Of a stretch of DNA of 64,000 nt, positions 4,413 through 62,099 are shown in pieces. The stretch spans positions 434,001 to 498,000 of the forward strand of contig NZ_CP033325.1 in NCBI RefSeq assembly GCF_003710105.1, written 5' to 3'. Within the stretch, counting starts at the first letter, position 1. The number at the start of each line of letters is the position of its first letter. The DNA comes from Georgenia faecalis. Lineage in GTDB: Bacteria > Actinomycetota > Actinomycetes > Actinomycetales > Actinomycetaceae. The notes below the pieces were generated by a model, which was not told the DNA's origin, searched no databases, and saw only the letters and a list, made by a program, of their open reading frames with translations. A program made the position numbers and the translations under genes.

Positions 4413-7400
4413 GTACGGCGCCGTCACCGTCGTCGTCCCGGGCAGGTCCTCCGCGGTGGCTGACACGCTCACCTCGCCGGCGGGCACGGAGCCGAGCCGG
4501 GTCGTGAACGTCGCCGAGGTCGACCGGTCCGCACCCACGGTCACCGTCTTCGACCCGTGGGCGCCCGTGATGACGGCAGTCGCCGGCACGTCCGACTCGT
4601 TCGTCACCCGCACCGTCTGCACGACCCGCCCGACGACGCACCGCGTGTCCGCCGTGACCGACACCTCCGGCCCCTCAGGCGTACCGACGCCGGGACCGGC
4701 GACGAACGTGTACGTCCCCGAGGGCACGGTGAACCGGGCGTAACCGTCCTCCACGCCGTGCGCGGTCGCGACCGCGACCGGCGTCACGCTGACGCCGTCG
4801 CCGTCCGCGACCGGCACGTAGACCTCCGCCGTGGCGCCGACGGGGACGCTCACGGTGAGGGTGAACCGGTCCCCCTCGCGGACCCACTCGGAGGAGACGT
4901 CGCCCAGGGGAGAGTCCACCTGTGCCGATGCGGTGGTCATCCCCCCAGCGGGGAACGGCTGGATCCGGATGCCGGTGTAGCCCGGTCCCGCCGCCTGCAC
5001 GCCCGCGACGTGCTGGTAGAGCCAGTCGTCGACGGTGCCGAGGAAGGCGTGGTCGAGCGAGCGCGAGTTCGCCCCCCACTCCTCCCACATCGTCGTCGCG
5101 CCCAGCTCCTCGAACCAGAAGCCCCACCCGGGGTAGGTCGGGTTCGTCGCGACCCGGTAGGCGAGGTCGGCGTACCCGTTCTCGGTGAGGACCGGCAGCA
5201 GGTACTTCGTGCCGATCGCGCCGGTGCTGAGGTGGTCCTCGCGCGCCTCGACGTCGGCGACGAGGTTGGCGAGCACCCGGTCGTGCTGGTCGTCGGGGAC
5301 GATCCCGAAGGCCAGCGGCAGGATGTTCGCGGTCTGGCGGTATCCGGCGTCTGCGTTGTCGACGTAGACGCCGCGCTCGGGGTCGTAGAACGTCGCGTTG
5401 AACGCCTCGGTGATCCGGTCGGCCATCTCCGCGAAGTGCGCGGCGTCCTCCTCGTGCCCCAGCACGGCAGCGATCTCGGCCAGGTGACCGGCCGTCTTGA
5501 TGAGGTACGCCGTCGCGGGCAGGCGGGTGCCGGCGTTGCCGCCCGGCGTCGGGTCGAGCCAGTCGCCGTAGCTGAAGCCGGTGTAGACGCCGCCGGTTCC
5601 GGAGATCAGCTCGTCGTAGTGGTTCATCCAGCGCGTCATGCCCTCGTAGTTCTCGGCGAGCACGCGGGTGTCGCCGTAGTACCAGTAGAGGTTCCAGCTC
5701 ATGAGGACGTAGCTCGACGTCCAGAGCGGGTCGTTGACCTGCTTGCCCCCGACCGTTCCCGGCACCGTGTTGCCGAGGGTGCCGTCAGGGTTCTGGTCGT
5801 CGCGGTGCGAGCGGATCCAGCTGTCGTAGAAGGTCTGCATGTCGAACCCGGCGATGGCGGAGTCGGCCCCGAGGAAGGCGTCCGCGCCGTAGGCGCGCTT
5901 CTCGTACATGGGGGTGTCCGTCGGGATCGAGTGGAGGTTGTTGAGGAGGGTGTTCGCCTGGGCCGCGTGGTAGCGGTTGAGGAGGTCGTCCGAGCTCGCG
6001 AACCCGCCCGTCCGCTCGACGGCGGTGTGGACCCGCATGCCCGCCACGTCCCGGACGGTGACGCCCGCCGGCGCCGCGACCTGGATGTAGCGGAACCCCG
6101 CGTAGCTGTAGCTCGGCCGGTAGGACTCCGGGCCCCCGCCCTTGAGTGTGTAGGTGTAGGTCTGGATGTTGAAGAACCCGCCGTTGTTGTCCACGGTGCC
6201 GTCGGCCCGCAGCTTCTCGCCGTAGGTGATCGTCACCGTCGCGCCCGCGGGGCCCTCGACGGTGACGTCGGCCCACCCGGCGGTGGGCTCGCCGAAGTCG
6301 TGCACGGTGACACCGGCCTGCGGGGTGGCGACGGCGACCCGCTCGAGGGGCTCGGTCACCTTGATGGCCGGGAACGCCTGCGAGCGGAGCTGCCCGCCTG
6401 GCGCCCGCACGGACACGGCCGGGTTCCACGATGCGTCGTCGAAGCCGGCGGTGTTCCAGCCGGGCTGCTCGCGGCGCGCGTCGTAGCTCTCGCCCATCCA
6501 CATGGAGTCCGACGTCGTCGGCCCGGCCCCCGCCGTCCAGGTGCGGTCGCTGACCACCCGCTCGACGGTGCCGTCCGTGTACGTGATGGCGAGCTCGAGC
6601 TTGAGCTTGGTGTCGTCGTGCCACGGCGAGCTCATCCACTCGTCGGGGAACGTCTGGCCGAAGTACCCGCGGCCGAGGCTCACGCCGACCGCGTTCTCAC
6701 CGTCCTGGAGCGCCTCGGTGACGTCGTACACCGAGTAGAGGGTGGTCTCGTCGTAGACGGTGAAGCCGGGGTCGAGCTCGTGGTCGCCTACCCGCTCACC
6801 GTTGAGGTAGAGCTTGTAGAAGCCGAGCCCGGTGACGTAGGCGCGGGCCTTGGCGACCTCCTTGGCCACGGTGAAGTCCTTGCGCAGCAGCGCCTCCGGC
6901 GGGGTGGGTGCGCTGATGTTGCTGCCCCACGGTCCGCCGCCGTAGGCGGCGCCGACGACGGCGGCGGGCCAGGCGGAGTCGTCGAAGCCGGGCTGGTCCC
7001 ACCCCGCGGCCGCCCCGGTGGCCGCCCGCCACGACGCGTCGGTGTTGATCTCGACGACCCGGCCGTCCGAGAGCTCGACCCGAAGCTTGCCGAGGAGTCC
7101 GGCGAAGCCCTGGGCGCCGTTGGTCACCCGCGCGGCCAGGACGTTGCGGCCGGCCGTGAGGCGGTCGGAGACGTCGGCCACCCGCGGGGTCCGCCACGCC
7201 TCGCCGGACGTCGGCGACCGCAGCGCCTCGGTGCCGTTGACGGAGAGGACAAAGTAGTCGTCGGCCGTCGCCTGGATCTGGGCCGAGACGATGTCCACCC
7301 CGGCGGGGAGGTCGAAGGTCGCGCGGAAGAACCGGTCGCCGGCCGGGGCGTTCCCGCCGGCCCCGCCGCCGTCCGTCCAGATCCACCCGGCGCCGGCGAA

Positions 7401-53450: not shown

Positions 53451-53778
53451 CGGACCAGTCTCCTCCCCGGCGGGCATCCGCCGCCATGGTCCGGCGTCCC
53501 CGCGGTGGCCGTGGCCGTGGCCGTAGCCACCGAGCACCGCGGGGCGCCTGGGCCCACGTCGCGGGCCGCAGCAGGACCGTAGGCAGCGTCCGTGCGCGAC
53601 GGCGTCCGTCTGCCGCCGTCGTCCGCTGTCGCTCCCCGGCGACGGCGGGATACGCGCGACGGCGACGTCGCCGGGGCAGGAGGCGACCGCACCCGGCGCC
53701 CCCGGTCGGATGTCAGCGGTGCTCGCCATTCTTAGCGTGGGCACCTCGAGCAGCACGGGAGCGAGACGAGGAGAGCAC
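53451..53778. other. 328-bp divergent promoter region
   Basis: Between aac(2') and the next GNAT gene no gene is seen. The aac(2') ribosome binding site lies at the left end, a short GGCCGT microsatellite (four units near 53504-53525) follows, and a -10-like TAGCGT at 53733-53738 stands 40 bp before the GNAT start. Confidence 0.5.
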
Positions 53779-54402
53779 ATGGACACGACCGCGCCGGTCC
53801 CCACGGCGTCCGTCCGGATCGCGCCGGTCCTGGCGTCGGAGCGGGAGGCCGCGGCGGCGCTCGCGGCGCGGGCGATGCGCAACAACCCCATGCACGTCGC
53901 CGCCCTTGGGCCGAACGGGCGTCGGCGGGTGGACGTCATGCACCGCGCCTTCACCGCCATGCTCGCCGACCGCCCGGTCCTCGGCGCGTGGCAGGGCGAG
54001 CGGCTGGTCGGCGTCGCCGCCCACACCGCGTCGCCGCGGTGCCAGCCCGACGCGCGCCAGCTCGTGCGGCTGATGCCCACGGTGGCGCAGGCGCGGACCA
54101 GCACCCCGCGCCTGCTGCGGTGGCTGGCGACGTGGGGGCGCCACGACCCGGCGACGCCGCACTCCCACCTCGGCCCGGTCGCCGTGGACCCCCGCTTCCG
54201 GGGCCGCGGGATCGGCAGCGCGCTGCTGGGCCGGTACGTGAAAGACCTTGACGACGGCGGTACCCCTGGGTATCTGGAGACCGACCGGCTCGCCAACGTC
54301 CGGCTCTACCGCCGGTTCGGCTTCGAGGTCGTCCACCAGGCCGGCGTCCTCGGGGTCCCCAACTGGTTCATGGTCCGCCCGCCGGGCAGACAGCGCCCCT
54401 GA
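53779..54402 (+). CDS. GNAT-family N-acetyltransferase
   Basis: 207 residues from ATG 53779, with ACGAGGAGAG upstream. The GNAT core is complete: HLGPVAVDPRFRGRGIGSALLGRYV (V-motif with RxxGxGxA-type CoA loop RFRGRGIGS), GYLETDRLANVRLYRRFGFEVV. The N-terminal part (AMRNNPMHVAALGPNGRRRVDVMHRAF) is the pattern of a common actinobacterial subgroup of unknown substrate. It begins a set of plus-strand genes with the NmrA-like gene 24 bp on. Confidence 0.85.
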   Translation: MDTTAPVPTASVRIAPVLASEREAAAALAARAMRNNPMHVAALGPNGRRRVDVMHRAFTAMLADRPVLGAWQGERLVGVAAHTASPRCQPDARQLVRLMPTVAQARTSTPRLLRWLATWGRHDPATPHSHLGPVAVDPRFRGRGIGSALLGRYVKDLDDGGTPGYLETDRLANVRLYRRFGFEVVHQAGVLGVPNWFMVRPPGRQRP

Positions 54403-57213: not shown

Positions 57214-57220
57214 AGGTGTC

Positions 57221-57260
57221 GCCCGGCCCGGCCCGGCCCCGCCCGGCCCGGCCCCGCCCG
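57221..57260. repeat. (GCCCS)n microsatellite
   Basis: Eight units of five bases, GCCCG or GCCCC, run head to tail, an easily slipping pure G/C tract between divergent promoters. Confidence 0.8.
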
Positions 57261-57337
57261 TCCGGGCACCGGGACCACGCCAGGCCTCACCTGTCGCGCC
57301 CCGACGACACCCACCCCCTGCGGGAGTCGACCGTCAT

Positions 57338-57384
57338 CGACGCCGCCGGGCCGATGTGGGGGGCGGGCGCCCGTTCGTAGTGTC
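57338..57384 (+). promoter_or_regulatory. Shared promoter module, first copy
   Basis: CGACGCC-N6-CCGATG (57338-57356) and a -10-like TAGTGT (57379-57384) precede the ATG at 57390, 52 bp from the first base of the motif. The same layout precedes the gene at 60070. The five-base distance from the -10 box to the ATG suggests a leaderless or nearly leaderless transcript. Confidence 0.65.
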
Positions 57385-57389
57385 CCCGC

Positions 57390-58004
57390 ATGAGCCACGA
57401 CCAGCCTCCGCACTACCCGCCGCCGGAGAACCAGCCCCACCACGGGCCGCCTCCGTCGGCGAGTGCGCCTGCGCCGGCGAGTGCCCCGGCGCCGGTGAGC
57501 TGGCCCCTCGTCCTCGGGCTGGGCAGCCTCGCGCTGCTGTGGCCGCTCACCGAGCTCGTCGGCGCCCCGGCAGCCCTCGGCCCGCTCGGCACCGTGCTGC
57601 TCAACGTCGTGGTGGTCGCTGTCATCTGGATCGGCGGCGTGGGCCTGGCGCGCGTGCCCCACCCGGTGCGCACCCTCACGCTCGCCGGCGTCGTCTACGG
57701 CAGTGTCCTCATGCTCATGTGGCTGGTCCTGGGGCTGCGTCTGGAAGGCGTCAGCGCCGGTGCGTTCGCCATCGGGGCGGCCCTCGAGATCGCCCGGTCG
57801 GCCGCGATGGGCGCCGTCGCGGGAGTGCTCGCCGGCGGCCTCCAGCGCCTGCTCGGGCCGCCCCGCACCACCGGACGGACGCAGCGAACCGTTGCGCCCG
57901 ACACAGTTCCCGGCCCCACCGACCAGCGGCCGGCCCCCGGCGACCCCGGCCGGTGGCCCCACCCGGGCAACACCGGGCCCGACCCCGGCGGGCCACCGGT
58001 GTGA
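57390..58004 (+). CDS. Small membrane protein with Pro-rich N-terminus
   Basis: 204 residues from ATG 57390. A disordered N-terminus rich in Pro and His (MSHDQPPHYPPPENQPHHGP) precedes four membrane segments (WPLVLGLGSLALLWPLTEL, LLNVVVVAVIWIGGVGLA, TLAGVVYGSVLMLMWLVLGL, AAMGAVAGVLAGGLQRLL) and a hydrophilic tail. The layout and promoter match the protein at 60070-60504, which is shorter. The family has no known role. The stop overlaps a GTG at 58001 that is in frame with the kinase gene that follows, so the genes form one unit with the two-component system. Confidence 0.75.
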   Translation: MSHDQPPHYPPPENQPHHGPPPSASAPAPASAPAPVSWPLVLGLGSLALLWPLTELVGAPAALGPLGTVLLNVVVVAVIWIGGVGLARVPHPVRTLTLAGVVYGSVLMLMWLVLGLRLEGVSAGAFAIGAALEIARSAAMGAVAGVLAGGLQRLLGPPRTTGRTQRTVAPDTVPGPTDQRPAPGDPGRWPHPGNTGPDPGGPPV

Positions 58005-58102
58005 CCGTGCGACCACTGCGCCGCGCGCCGGAGCCGGGGAACGACCTCATCCGTGCCCCCGAAGTCGTGGCCCGGGCGCCGGGCAGTTCCTACCCTGGTG
58101 TG

Positions 58103-59263
58103 GTGTCCCGCACCGAGGCCACGGAGGGCGTCGACCAGCGTCTGCTCGACGCCCTGTTCGGCGTGGGCGTGGGCCTCGCGGTCGCCCTCGTCATCGCCGC
58201 CGACCTCGACGAGACGGGCCGCGCGGGCGTGGGCGCCTACCTCTTCGCGGTCGGCTTCGGCGTCCTCGTCCTCTTCCGGCGGCGCGCGCCCCGCGTGGTC
58301 CTCGCGCTCACCGTGCTCGCCCTGTTCGTGTACTACGCCCTCGACTTCCCCCCGGTGGGCATCGCGCTGCCCGTCGCCGCGGCCTTCTTCTCCGCTGCCG
58401 AGGCGGGCCGGACGCTGTGGGCGATCCGGGTCGCCATCTTCCTCGTCGCCGTGTCGGTCTTCGCCCTCGTCGAGGAGGGCCGTCCCGCCGACTACCTCTT
58501 CAGCTACGAACTCCTGACGAACGCCGCGCTCGTCGCGGCCGCGATCGCGCTGGGCGTCAGCGTGCGCTCCCGTCGGGAGGCGCGTGAGCACCAGGAGCAG
58601 CTGCACCGCGTGCAGGTCGCCGAGCAGGAGCGCCGAGCGGAGCAGCGCGTCCACGAGGAGCGGATGCGCATCGCCCGCGACCTCCACGACGTCGTCGGGC
58701 ACACCCTCTCCGTCATCGCCGTCCACGGGAACGTCGCCGCCGAGGCGGTGGGCCAGGACGACGACGCCGCCCGCCGGGCGGTCCAGCAGATCCGCGACGT
58801 CACCTCGGCGACCATGCGCGAGCTGCGCGCGACGGTCAAGGTGCTGCGCTCCCCGGGCGTCGAGCCGGAGCGCGGGGCGGTGGGCCTGTCGGGCGTGCCG
58901 CAGCTCGCCGAGGCCGGCCGGGAGGCGGGGATCGACGTCGACGTCGACCTCGACATCCCGGCCGGGTCGCTCGACGGCGCCGTCGACGCCGCCGCCTACC
59001 GGATCGTGCAGGAGTCGCTCACCAACGTCATGCGCCACTCGGGCGCCACCCGCGCCCACGTGCGCGCCGCCGTCGTCGACGGGCTCCTCGAGGTCACCGT
59101 CACCGACGACGGCCACGGGCCGGCCGGGGACGTCCGGCCCGGCGCGGGGCTCACGGGTATGCAGGAGCGGGCGGCGGTGCTGGGGGGCCGGGTCACCTTC
59201 GGTGGCTCGGGGGACGGGGGGTTCACCGTGCGTGCGGTGCTCCCGGGAAGGATGGAGCCATGA
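58103..59263 (+). CDS. NarL/DesK-type sensor histidine kinase
   Basis: 386 residues from GTG 58103; GTG 58001 overlapping the upstream stop (GTGA) is in frame and gives 420 residues, so the start is uncertain. A TACCCT box seven bases before 58103 would suit a leaderless start. Five membrane segments (for example VGLAVALVIAAD, YLFAVGFGVLVLF, VVLALTVLALFVYYALDF, VGIALPVAAAFFSAAEA) precede a coiled coil (REAREHQEQLHRVQVAEQER), a HisKA_3 site with the phosphorylated His in RDLHDVVGHTLSVIAVHG and the ATPase domain with N-box QESLTNVMRHSG and G-box DDGHG. No extracellular sensor domain, so it probably senses the membrane or acts with the membrane protein encoded before it. Confidence 0.92.
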   Translation: MSRTEATEGVDQRLLDALFGVGVGLAVALVIAADLDETGRAGVGAYLFAVGFGVLVLFRRRAPRVVLALTVLALFVYYALDFPPVGIALPVAAAFFSAAEAGRTLWAIRVAIFLVAVSVFALVEEGRPADYLFSYELLTNAALVAAAIALGVSVRSRREAREHQEQLHRVQVAEQERRAEQRVHEERMRIARDLHDVVGHTLSVIAVHGNVAAEAVGQDDDAARRAVQQIRDVTSATMRELRATVKVLRSPGVEPERGAVGLSGVPQLAEAGREAGIDVDVDLDIPAGSLDGAVDAAAYRIVQESLTNVMRHSGATRAHVRAAVVDGLLEVTVTDDGHGPAGDVRPGAGLTGMQERAAVLGGRVTFGGSGDGGFTVRAVLPGRMEP

Positions 59264-59922
59264 TCCGCGTCGTGCTGGTCGACGACCAGGAGCTGGTCCG
59301 CACGGGGCTGCGGACCCTCGTCGAGCACGACGGCGACATCGCCGTCGTCGGCGAGGCGGAGACCGGGCGCAGCGGGCTGCGCCGGGTGCGGGAGATGCGC
59401 CCCGACGTCGTCCTCATGGACATCCGCATGCCCGACCTCGACGGGCTGGAGGCCACCCGGCAGATCGTCGCCGACGCGGCGCTCGCCGCCGTCCGGGTCC
59501 TCGTGCTCACCACCTTCGACGAGGACGAGCACGTGTTCGAGGCGATCCGCGCCGGGGCGGCCGGTTACCTCCTCAAGGACGTCTCACCCGGCGACCTGCG
59601 GGCGGCGGTCCGGGTGGTCGCCGCGGGGGAGTCGCTGCTCGCGCCGTCGGTCACCCGCACCGTCATGCGCTCGCTGGCGAGCGCACCGCGCACCACCACC
59701 GACGACACCCCGCTGCGCCGCCTCACCGAGCGGGAGCGGGAGGTCCTCGAGCAGGTGGGCCGGGGGCTGTCCAACGAGGAGATCGCCCGGGTGCTGTTCC
59801 TGTCCCCGGCCACCGCCCGTACCTACGTCTCGCGGCTGCTCACCAAGCTCGACGCCCGCGACCGCTCCCAGCTCGTCGTCCTCGCCTACGAGACGGGGCT
59901 CATCGCCCCGGGCCTGGCCTGA
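59260..59922 (+). CDS. NarL-family response regulator
   Basis: 220 residues; ATG 59260 overlaps the kinase stop by 4 bp (ATGA). The receiver domain has the acidic pair in RVVLVDDQELVRTG, the phosphorylated Asp in VVLMDIRMPDLDGLEAT, and Lys in GYLLKD; the C-terminal LuxR-type helix-turn-helix is LTEREREVLEQVGRGLSNEE, IARVLFLSPATARTYVSRLL (residues about 150-200). It is the partner of the kinase. The two identical promoter modules at 57338 and 60018 flank this system and are the first candidates for its binding sites. Confidence 0.95.
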   Translation: MIRVVLVDDQELVRTGLRTLVEHDGDIAVVGEAETGRSGLRRVREMRPDVVLMDIRMPDLDGLEATRQIVADAALAAVRVLVLTTFDEDEHVFEAIRAGAAGYLLKDVSPGDLRAAVRVVAAGESLLAPSVTRTVMRSLASAPRTTTDDTPLRRLTEREREVLEQVGRGLSNEEIARVLFLSPATARTYVSRLLTKLDARDRSQLVVLAYETGLIAPGLA

Positions 59923-60017
59923 CGCCGGCCGACGGCGGGCCGACGCCTGACGTAGGCCGCCGTCGATGCCGGCACCGCCCCAGGGCGACCGGACGCGTCC
60001 CCCAGCGTCGCCCCCAC

Positions 60018-60062
60018 CGACGCCTGGGGGCCGATGACCCCAGACGGCCCGGTTCCTAGCGT
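60018..60062 (+). promoter_or_regulatory. Shared promoter module, second copy
   Basis: CGACGCC-N6-CCGATG (60018-60036) and TAGCGT (60057-60062) precede the ATG at 60070, again exactly 52 bp from the first base. The left part also forms an imperfect dyad with upstream CCCCCAGCGTCG (59999-60010) and CGACGCCTGGGGG (60018-60030). Confidence 0.65.
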
Positions 60063-60069
60063 TTTCGGT

Positions 60070-60504
60070 ATGACGAATCCCCACAGCTCCGTTCCCTCCT
60101 ACCCCCCGCCCGGCCCCACCCCGGGGCCGACCCGTGAGGAGAGGTCGGCCGGGCTCCGCCCGGGCCTCATCCTCGGCCTCGCCCTCCTGCCGCTCGTGAT
60201 CGGCGTGGCTCGCGCGAGCGGCGCCATCCAGACCGGCGGCAACGCGATCGTGCTCGTCGGCCTCGTCACCGCCGTGTGGCTCACGGTCGTCGCCGGACGC
60301 AACGTCGCCCGACCGCTCGCCACCCTCACCCTCACCGGCCTGACCGCGGGGGTTTACCTCGCGCTCCTCTTCGGGGGCGTCAGCGTCCTCGGGATCGGCG
60401 CCCCGTTCCCCGTCGCCGGCATCATCGCGCTGCCCATCGTCCAGACGGTCTGGGGCTTCATCGCCGGGCTGCTCGCCCTGCTCATCAACTGGGTGCGGAC
60501 ATGA
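60070..60504 (+). CDS. Small membrane protein with Pro-rich N-terminus
   Basis: 144 residues from ATG 60070; an in-frame earlier start lies inside the promoter module. The N-terminus is disordered and Pro-rich (MTNPHSSVPSYPPPGPTPGP), followed by four membrane segments (LILGLALLPLVIGVARA, IVLVGLVTAVWLTVVAG, LATLTLTGLTAGVYLALLF, ALPIVQTVWGFIAGLLALLI). Layout and promoter agree with the protein at 57390-58004. The stop overlaps the start of the multicopper oxidase gene by 4 bp (ATGA at 60501-60504), so the two are coupled and the protein may help export or assembly of the oxidase. Confidence 0.75.
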   Translation: MTNPHSSVPSYPPPGPTPGPTREERSAGLRPGLILGLALLPLVIGVARASGAIQTGGNAIVLVGLVTAVWLTVVAGRNVARPLATLTLTGLTAGVYLALLFGGVSVLGIGAPFPVAGIIALPIVQTVWGFIAGLLALLINWVRT

Positions 60505-62099
60505 CCCGGCGGTCGCGGCTCGCCACCGCCGTCGCCGTCACCGCCGCGACGGCGCTGCTCGCCGCGTGCGACGGCGGCTTCGTCGGCGGCGGGCTCCCCG
60601 GCGTGGAGGAGGTGCCCTTCACCACCCCGCTGGCGATCCCGCCCCTGGCGCCCTCCCGCGTCGAGCCCGACGGCACCCGGGTCTTCGAGCTCACCGCCCA
60701 GGAGGGCTCGATGCCGTTCGTCGACGGCGCCGAGACCCGGACGTGGGGGTTCAACGGCGACTACCTCGGCCCCACCCTGCGCGCCGAGCGCGGCGAGCGG
60801 GTCGCGGTGGAGGTGACCAACGAGCTCGGGGAGGCGACGAGCGTCCACTGGCACGGAATGCACCTGCCCCCTGAGATGGACGGCGGGCCGCACCAGATGG
60901 TCGAGCCGGGCGAGACGTGGCGGCCCACCTGGGAGATCGACCAGCCAGCGGCGACCCTCTGGTACCACCCCCACCCGCACGGGGAGACCGAGCGCCACGT
61001 CTACCAGGGCCTCGCCGGCCTGTTCCTTCTCGACGACCCCGAGGCCGCCCCGGACCTGCCGTCGCAGTACGGCGTCGACGACATCCCGGTCATCGTCCAG
61101 GACAAGCAGTTCGACGACGCCGGTCAGCTCACCCTTGAGGAGAACCAGTCCGAGCCCGGGGTCCTCGGCCAGACGGTCATGGTCAACGGGACGGTCGGCC
61201 CCTTCCTCGGGGTGTCCACCGAGCGGGTGCGCCTACGGCTGCTCAACGGCTCGACCGCCCGGACGTACAGCTTCGGCTTCGACGACGGTCGCCGCTTCCA
61301 GCTCGTCGGCACCGACGGTGGCCTGCTCCCCGCGCCGCACGAGACCACCGACGTCCGGCTCTCCCCGGGCGAGCGCGCGGAGATCGTCGTCGCCGTCACG
61401 CCGGGCGAGCAGGTGACCCTGCGCTCCTCCGAGCCCGACCTCGGACGGGTGGCCTCCTCCGCGGCGTTCGGCGGCGAGGACACCTTCGACGTCCTCGAGC
61501 TGCGGGCGGACACCATGCTCGCGCCGTCGCCGCCGGTGCCCGACGTCCTCGCCGACGTGCCCCGGATCAAGGAGAGCGAGGCAGGCGTGACGCGGGACTT
61601 CACCCTCGCCGTCCGCCAGATCAACGGCAGGAGCATGGACCCCGAGCGCATCGACGAGGTGGTGCACGAGGGCCAGACCGAGATCTGGGAGGTCCGCAGC
61701 ATCGACTCCCTGCCGCACAACTTCCACATCCACGACGTCCAGTTCCAGGTGCTCGACATTGGCGGGGAACCGCCGCCGCCGGAGCTCATGGGGTGGAAGG
61801 ACACCGTCTACCTCGAGCCGCAGCGCGACTACCGCCTCATCATGCGGTTCGAGGACTTCACCGACGCCGACAGCCCGTACATGTTCCACTGCCACCTCCT
61901 GCGTCACGAGGACGAGGGGCTCATGGGCCAGTTCGTCGTCGTCGGCGAGGGGGAGTCCGCCCCGACGACGATCGACCTGGACCACGACGGCGGCCGCCCC
62001 GGTGCCGACGGCGGCGACGGCGGGGCTGACGACGGTGGTGGCGACGACGGCGACGGCGGCGGGGCTGCCGGCGGGGCTGACGGCGGCCACGCGCACTGA
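60501..62099 (+). CDS. Multicopper oxidase lipoprotein (CueO/bilirubin-oxidase-like)
   Basis: 532 residues from ATG 60501. A lipoprotein signal with lipobox LAAC (TALLAACDGG) tethers it to the outer membrane face. Three cupredoxin domains with all four copper motifs: HWHG (H116, H118), YHPHPHG (H156, H158, H160), HNFHIHDVQF and HCHLLRHEDEGLM, with the type-1 Cys at C464. Such enzymes couple four one-electron oxidations of copper(I), phenols or bilirubin to reduction of oxygen to water. A Gly/Asp-rich low-complexity tail ends in GGHAH, perhaps a metal-binding extra. Metal homeostasis or laccase activity is likely; the operon's control by the flanking two-component system is inference. Confidence 0.92.
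   Translation: MTRRSRLATAVAVTAATALLAACDGGFVGGGLPGVEEVPFTTPLAIPPLAPSRVEPDGTRVFELTAQEGSMPFVDGAETRTWGFNGDYLGPTLRAERGERVAVEVTNELGEATSVHWHGMHLPPEMDGGPHQMVEPGETWRPTWEIDQPAATLWYHPHPHGETERHVYQGLAGLFLLDDPEAAPDLPSQYGVDDIPVIVQDKQFDDAGQLTLEENQSEPGVLGQTVMVNGTVGPFLGVSTERVRLRLLNGSTARTYSFGFDDGRRFQLVGTDGGLLPAPHETTDVRLSPGERAEIVVAVTPGEQVTLRSSEPDLGRVASSAAFGGEDTFDVLELRADTMLAPSPPVPDVLADVPRIKESEAGVTRDFTLAVRQINGRSMDPERIDEVVHEGQTEIWEVRSIDSLPHNFHIHDVQFQVLDIGGEPPPPELMGWKDTVYLEPQRDYRLIMRFEDFTDADSPYMFHCHLLRHEDEGLMGQFVVVGEGESAPTTIDLDHDGGRPGADGGDGGADDGGGDDGDGGGAAGGADGGHAH

Follow-up and report, generated by a model that had tools for sequence, protein, structure and literature searches.

A putative NarL-type regulator switch shared by two membrane-protein operons and an acetyltransferase gene in Georgenia faecalis

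The window, meaning the whole 64,000-nucleotide stretch of Georgenia faecalis DNA that was analysed, contains a two-component system (TCS) lying between the genes of two membrane proteins, together with a multicopper oxidase gene, a GNAT acetyltransferase gene and several short promoter elements. These features are as follows:

53627..53644 (+): palindrome TGTCGCTCCCCGGCGACG, an 11/12 match to TGTCGC-N6-GCGACA, 82 bp before the GATG of the GNAT promoter
53694..53740 (+): third promoter-module copy, CGGCGCC-N6-CGGATG, 20 bp, then TAGCGT at 53733-53738; rank 4 with profile R1
53779..54402 (+): GNAT acetyltransferase (Pfam Acetyltransf_1), third predicted regulon member
57292..57309 (+): palindrome TGTCGCGCCCCGACGACA, presumed high-affinity RR site of the MP1-HK-RR operon, 61 bp before GATG
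57338..57356 (+): putative proximal operator CGACGCC-N6-CCGATG, overlapping the MP1 -35 region
57378..57383 (+): predicted -10 box TAGTGT (TANNNT), 6 bp before the MP1 ATG, leaderless promoter
57390..58004 (+): MP1, four-helix membrane protein without a Pfam family
58001..59263 (+): HK, sensor histidine kinase (HisKA_3, HATPase_c), with a GTG start overlapping the MP1 stop
59260..59922 (+): RR, NarL/LuxR-type response regulator, nearest solved structure VraR
59973..59990 (+): weak palindrome CACCGCCCCAGGGCGACC in the -60 register of MP2, 8/12, not significant alone
60005..60023 (+): inverted repeat GCGTCG-N7-CGACGC, which includes the start of CGACGCC; possible alternative upstream half-site at MP2
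60018..60036 (+): putative proximal operator CGACGCC-N6-CCGATG, overlapping the MP2 -35 region
60057..60062 (+): predicted -10 box TAGCGT, 7 bp before the MP2 ATG, leaderless promoter
60070..60504 (+): MP2, distant paralog of MP1
60501..62099 (+): CueO-like three-domain multicopper oxidase with lipobox LLAAC, its start overlapping the MP2 stop

Because the start of each later gene overlaps the stop codon of its predecessor, the genes fall into two operons, MP1-HK-RR and MP2-oxidase, and since the GTG of HK overlaps the MP1 stop, the MP1 promoter is also that of the TCS. RR carries Response_reg and GerE domains and HK carries HisKA_3 and HATPase_c, all above curated cut-offs; HK also has a weak DUF7134 match, and the domain search found in it no GAF domain, a feature of DevS/DosT-type kinases. 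The nearest solved relatives of RR are VraR, DevR and NarL. About a dozen other NarL-like regulators are encoded in the genome, and no close copy of RR was found on plasmids.

MP1 and MP2 are about 25-27% identical (phmmer E=3.5e-6), and a family profile that includes both matches only these two proteins genome-wide, at 4.6e-47 and 6e-36. Each has about four predicted membrane helices, and neither matches any Pfam or NCBIfam model. An AlphaFold model of MP1 is helical and of low confidence (pLDDT 67.7, pTM 0.34), and in a tree MP1 groups with the homologue of relative L007 while MP2 forms a long isolated branch. The oxidase has multicopper-oxidase domains, with CueO as its best NCBIfam relative and CueO-type enzymes among its best PDB relatives, and scores 397.6 bits against the CueO equivalog NF008205, under the cut-off of 525.

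A pattern search of the window found only two exact copies of CGACGCC-N6-CCGATG, each with its first C 52 bp from an ATG (57390 and 60070); the position of the TAG box differs by one base between the two promoters, the 52-bp totals being equal. The original prediction had described precisely this motif with its TAGYGT box, and the coordinates bear it out, as paralogy and helix prediction do its statement that the two products are alike with four helices each, and the overlap of MP2 and oxidase its coupling of the second gene to that enzyme. Its picture of two genes flanking a TCS holds in that HK and RR do lie between them, but MP1 is itself part of the operon with HK and RR.

The 3.43-Mb genome holds six exact copies of CGACGCC-N6-CCGATG, and TAGYGT occurs within 90 bp only at MP1 and MP2, the other four copies being without it. 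A sequence-only profile, R1, derived from 23 promoters of other genomes and run on the whole 3.43-Mb genome, ranked the MP1 promoter first (E=1.4e-7), a site before a DoxX-family gene second (G000:C1:1670358-1670404, minus strand, E=2.0e-7), the MP2 promoter third (E=4.7e-5) and window positions 53694-53740 fourth (E=2.3e-4), after which E-values jump to 0.036 and worse; pattern and profile searches are the basis of these genome-wide statements. A run of ggcccggcccc repeats occupies positions 57219-57265 of the window, upstream of the MP1 promoter. In Actinobacteria, TANNNT about 12 bp before the start codon marks leaderless genes (PMC3160421), and the first T of this box lies here at -12 (MP1) and -13 (MP2). 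Taken with the module spacing, this rule puts the element in the -35 place of a leaderless promoter.

Loci of relatives were found with RR as query and with the MP profile, the latter in 39/396 genomes of the order; a related-locus search of genome contigs with MP2 as query returned none, and the RR query succeeded. The set of genes is nearly constant: HK and RR share a strand and MP, in most cases with the oxidase behind it, is transcribed away from them. The one-strand gene order of the window is a rearranged version of this divergent layout. In 39 of the 53 MP-family matches an in-frame ATG or GTG follows GATG at a distance of 36-39 bp; among those 39, the T and the G after GATG are each kept in 34 and the C-G of the upstream GACGC in 34 and 33, related genomes being non-independent observations. 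Relative to GATG, the conserved positions are GACGC from 14 bp upstream, GGG and C immediately before, and TG after. The following spacer of about 20 bp is near background and TTCCTAGCGT is then conserved again, so that the promoter of the relatives can be written as GACGCC..GGSCGATGTGG - 20/21 bp - TAGCGT - 6/7 bp - ATG, with 20 or 21 bp from GATG to TANNNT and 6 or 7 bp from TANNNT to ATG.

Several further observations were made among these relatives. A second MP subfamily (L144, L145, L147, L149, L150 and L119, mostly of the GVPRVVLHDL type) has the same module, and in L145, L147 and L149 it is present without this HK/RR nearby. Weaker module copies are found towards HK in the divergent region of L008 (4612-4657, +), L015, L141, L144 and L153, which suggests autoregulation in relatives too. 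The RR most similar to ours (83%) comes from L007 (NZ_OBDO01000001.1), a record titled Geodermatophilus sabuli, the other closest relative being a Georgenia; a mislabelled record or a transfer is possible.

A second element, an upstream palindrome, accompanies the module. Relatives carry TGTCGC-N6-GCGACA or TGTCGCCT-N2-CGACGTAC between MP and HK, and the palindrome is present in 35/39 MP promoters at thresholds that 1% of random 100-mers pass. It starts 37-38, 49, 59-62, 82-83 or 93 bp before GATG in MP promoters, and two related systems at 70-71 bp continue this series of 11-bp steps (class-level Monte Carlo p about 0.001 to 0.0002), the phasing expected of a protein bound to one face of the DNA. 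The copy before MP1 is an 11/12 match in the same register as in relatives. No clear palindrome was found at the expected register of the MP2 promoter, 8/12 being the best there. TGTCGC-N6-RCGACR occurs exactly twice in the genome (57292-57309 and 53627-53644) as against five occurrences of the reversed control pattern, a count that is supporting and not decisive because the R positions were loosened after the sites were seen.

The second of these palindromes belongs to the GNAT gene, where the whole arrangement of palindrome, CGGATG element and TAGCGT (53627-53740) is an addition to the original prediction. Unlike MP1 and MP2, this gene is leadered, with a normal leader and ribosome site. Its homologue in L151, one of the nearest relatives, carries the same module (R1 match 6690-6738); MP was not found in that locus, and there a module also stands directly before the oxidase (R1 match 2582-2627). 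The DoxX site (L190 6359-6405, minus strand) has no palindrome, and no two-component genes lie in the 13 kb fetched around it; it may belong to another regulator.

One might view the module as the promoter of an alternative sigma factor, with GGSSGATGTG as its -35 and TAGCGT as its -10 element. This would explain its presence before unrelated genes such as ABC transporter, PspC-like, DoxX and kinase genes, and GATGTG does lie 18-19 bp before TAGCGT, in the usual -35 place. However, of the 22 R1 matches outside MP loci, whose genes include ABC transporter, PspC-like and kinase genes, 18 have a NarL-type regulator within about 6 kb as against 0/16 control regions of the same genomes. This contrast may be overstated because the controls were arbitrary stretches and not promoter-matched, and Fisher values are descriptive only because rows from related genomes are not independent. 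The MP promoters of L011, L154, L155 and L129 keep GATGTGG though their -10 has diverged, the 11-bp phased palindrome calls for a DNA-binding protein, and TAGCGT conforms to the TANNNT box usual at leaderless actinobacterial genes (PMC3160421), all of which makes a dedicated sigma factor improbable in our judgement.

We give a similarly small chance to the idea that a different regulator, for example a paralogous NarL-type protein or a copper sensor, acts on these same genes while the TCS acts elsewhere. The proximal element is common to several NarL-type loci and is therefore, taken alone, no proof of control by RR (59260-59922); the genome offers about a dozen candidate NarL-like proteins, and the DoxX site stands apart from any TCS in its region. 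Against this, HK/RR, MP and palindrome are linked in nearly all relatives, and the palindrome occurs at only 2/17 of the other module sites, in an MP-versus-module comparison that partly reuses training genomes. Both of these sites adjoin the closest RR paralogs (62-65% identity) and another multicopper oxidase. In loci L238 and L247 the RRs are 62-65% identical to ours, and the accompanying multicopper oxidase (33-35%) and small membrane protein are different ones; both loci carry the module with a palindrome at 70-71 bp and represent a sister system.

Least probable is that the modules are alike only through duplication of an MP gene with its promoter, without regulatory meaning. In its favour are the paralogy of MP1 and MP2 and the single MP gene usually seen beside the TCS in relatives, but the proteins have diverged widely while the motif is kept, in other genera too and ahead of the GNAT gene, which is not homologous, so that the relatives largely refute it. 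The 52-mers themselves are 26/52 identical and their flanks only 31-33%, for which reason a recent DNA duplication does not by itself account for the match; with flank identity at background, recent duplication as the sole cause is ruled out.

The conservation, spacing, phasing, linkage and rarity of these elements are read directly from the sequence, and based on them we conclude that the repeat is a real, widely conserved promoter switch, very probably one used by the regulator of the neighbouring TCS. We consider it likely that the module is an RR-dependent leaderless sigma-A promoter, through which RR would autoregulate MP1-HK-RR and activate MP2-oxidase and GNAT. Phosphorylated RR would bind the strong palindrome TGTCGC-N6-RCGACR and cooperatively occupy the imperfect proximal site CGACGCC-N6-CCGATG, a weak site in place of a -35 box, and would thereby recruit RNA polymerase with sigma-A to TAGYGT, 6-7 bp before the start at MP1 and MP2 and with a leader at GNAT. 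The predicted outcome is an autoregulated MP1-HK-RR operon, with MP2-multicopper oxidase and GNAT switched on. In position and phasing the layout is that of a class-II NarL-type promoter, clearly so at MP1 and with a weak upstream site at MP2, and class-II autoregulated activation by a VraR/DevR-like regulator is our best reading. From this architecture we infer the binding of RR, its dependence on phosphorylation, activation in preference to repression, and the nature of the signal (copper, redox or envelope stress). A role in metal or envelope stress would follow by analogy from the CueO-like oxidase and the VraR-like regulator.

The proposal that the NarL-type regulator acts at this module, made originally from position and spacing, thus gains support from the orthologous promoters of many genera, from constant HK/RR linkage, from the module before the L151 oxidase without MP and from the enrichment near NarL-type regulators, all of which are consistent with such a site. 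Alignment of related genomes shows the CCGATG element to be conserved in related species. In the genome search with R1 the whole module proved uncommon among unrelated promoters of this genome, although its proximal half recurs at other NarL-type loci. This pattern is most simply read as one proximal element shared among several NarL-type systems, combined with a system-specific palindrome, and because the palindrome is mostly absent at the other NarL-type module sites, it is probably what gives the system its specificity. More tentatively, actinobacteria might share a two-part cis code, in which GGSSGATGTG replaces the -35 box 20/21 bp before TAGCGT, often at leaderless genes, and a system-specific palindrome at multiples of 11 bp chooses the regulator. 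If this were true, the regulons of many uncharacterised NarL-type systems would become predictable from sequence.

The analysis provides an operator sequence, a spacing rule and a small list of targets for an apparently undescribed and widely distributed actinobacterial TCS that accompanies a multicopper oxidase as well as a family of membrane proteins absent from Pfam. The recurrence of the proximal element, set against a palindrome mostly limited to one system, also allows testable assignment of targets to uncharacterised NarL-type regulators. A literature search, with most subscription journals outside its reach, found no paper on this system or operator.

Several known systems resemble parts of this one. 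One is DevR (DosR) of Mycobacterium tuberculosis, an autoregulated actinobacterial NarL-type regulator that acts at promoters in which a strong and a weak site are tightly packed and the start-proximal one overlaps the -35 box (PMC3029386). Its operator sequence differs, however, as do the predicted targets, which in our locus are a membrane protein, an oxidase and a GNAT protein. The MP promoters here are also leaderless with constant spacing, and HK lacks the GAF domain of the DevS/DosT-type kinases of the DevR regulon. VraR of Staphylococcus aureus, the nearest solved relative of RR (DesR and LiaR are also comparable), binds a conserved R1 site (its own, distinct from our profile) and a less conserved R2 site that requires phosphorylation-driven dimerisation, and is autoregulated (PMC6612188), whereas vraSR belongs to a low-GC host, has other site sequences and is without a multicopper oxidase. 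LiaFSR and VraTSR include an accessory membrane protein, LiaF or VraT; none was recognised here by Pfam or NCBIfam family, and MP1 and MP2 could still be its functional analogues.

CopRS of Corynebacterium glutamicum is similar in layout, being an autoregulated, copper-responsive TCS next to a divergent multicopper-oxidase operon with the regulator site between them (PMC3353115). CopR is an OmpR-family protein acting on a tandem 9-bp repeat, unlike the NarL-family regulator and inverted repeat described here, for which a copper response is hypothetical. Compared with CueO-type oxidases, ours falls below the curated CueO cut-off and has a lipoprotein-type signal. PolR has a motif, GTTCACnnnnnGTTCaC, that differs from the module, and CrsR is without a defined motif. 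The architecture is a known one; the regulon appears to be new.
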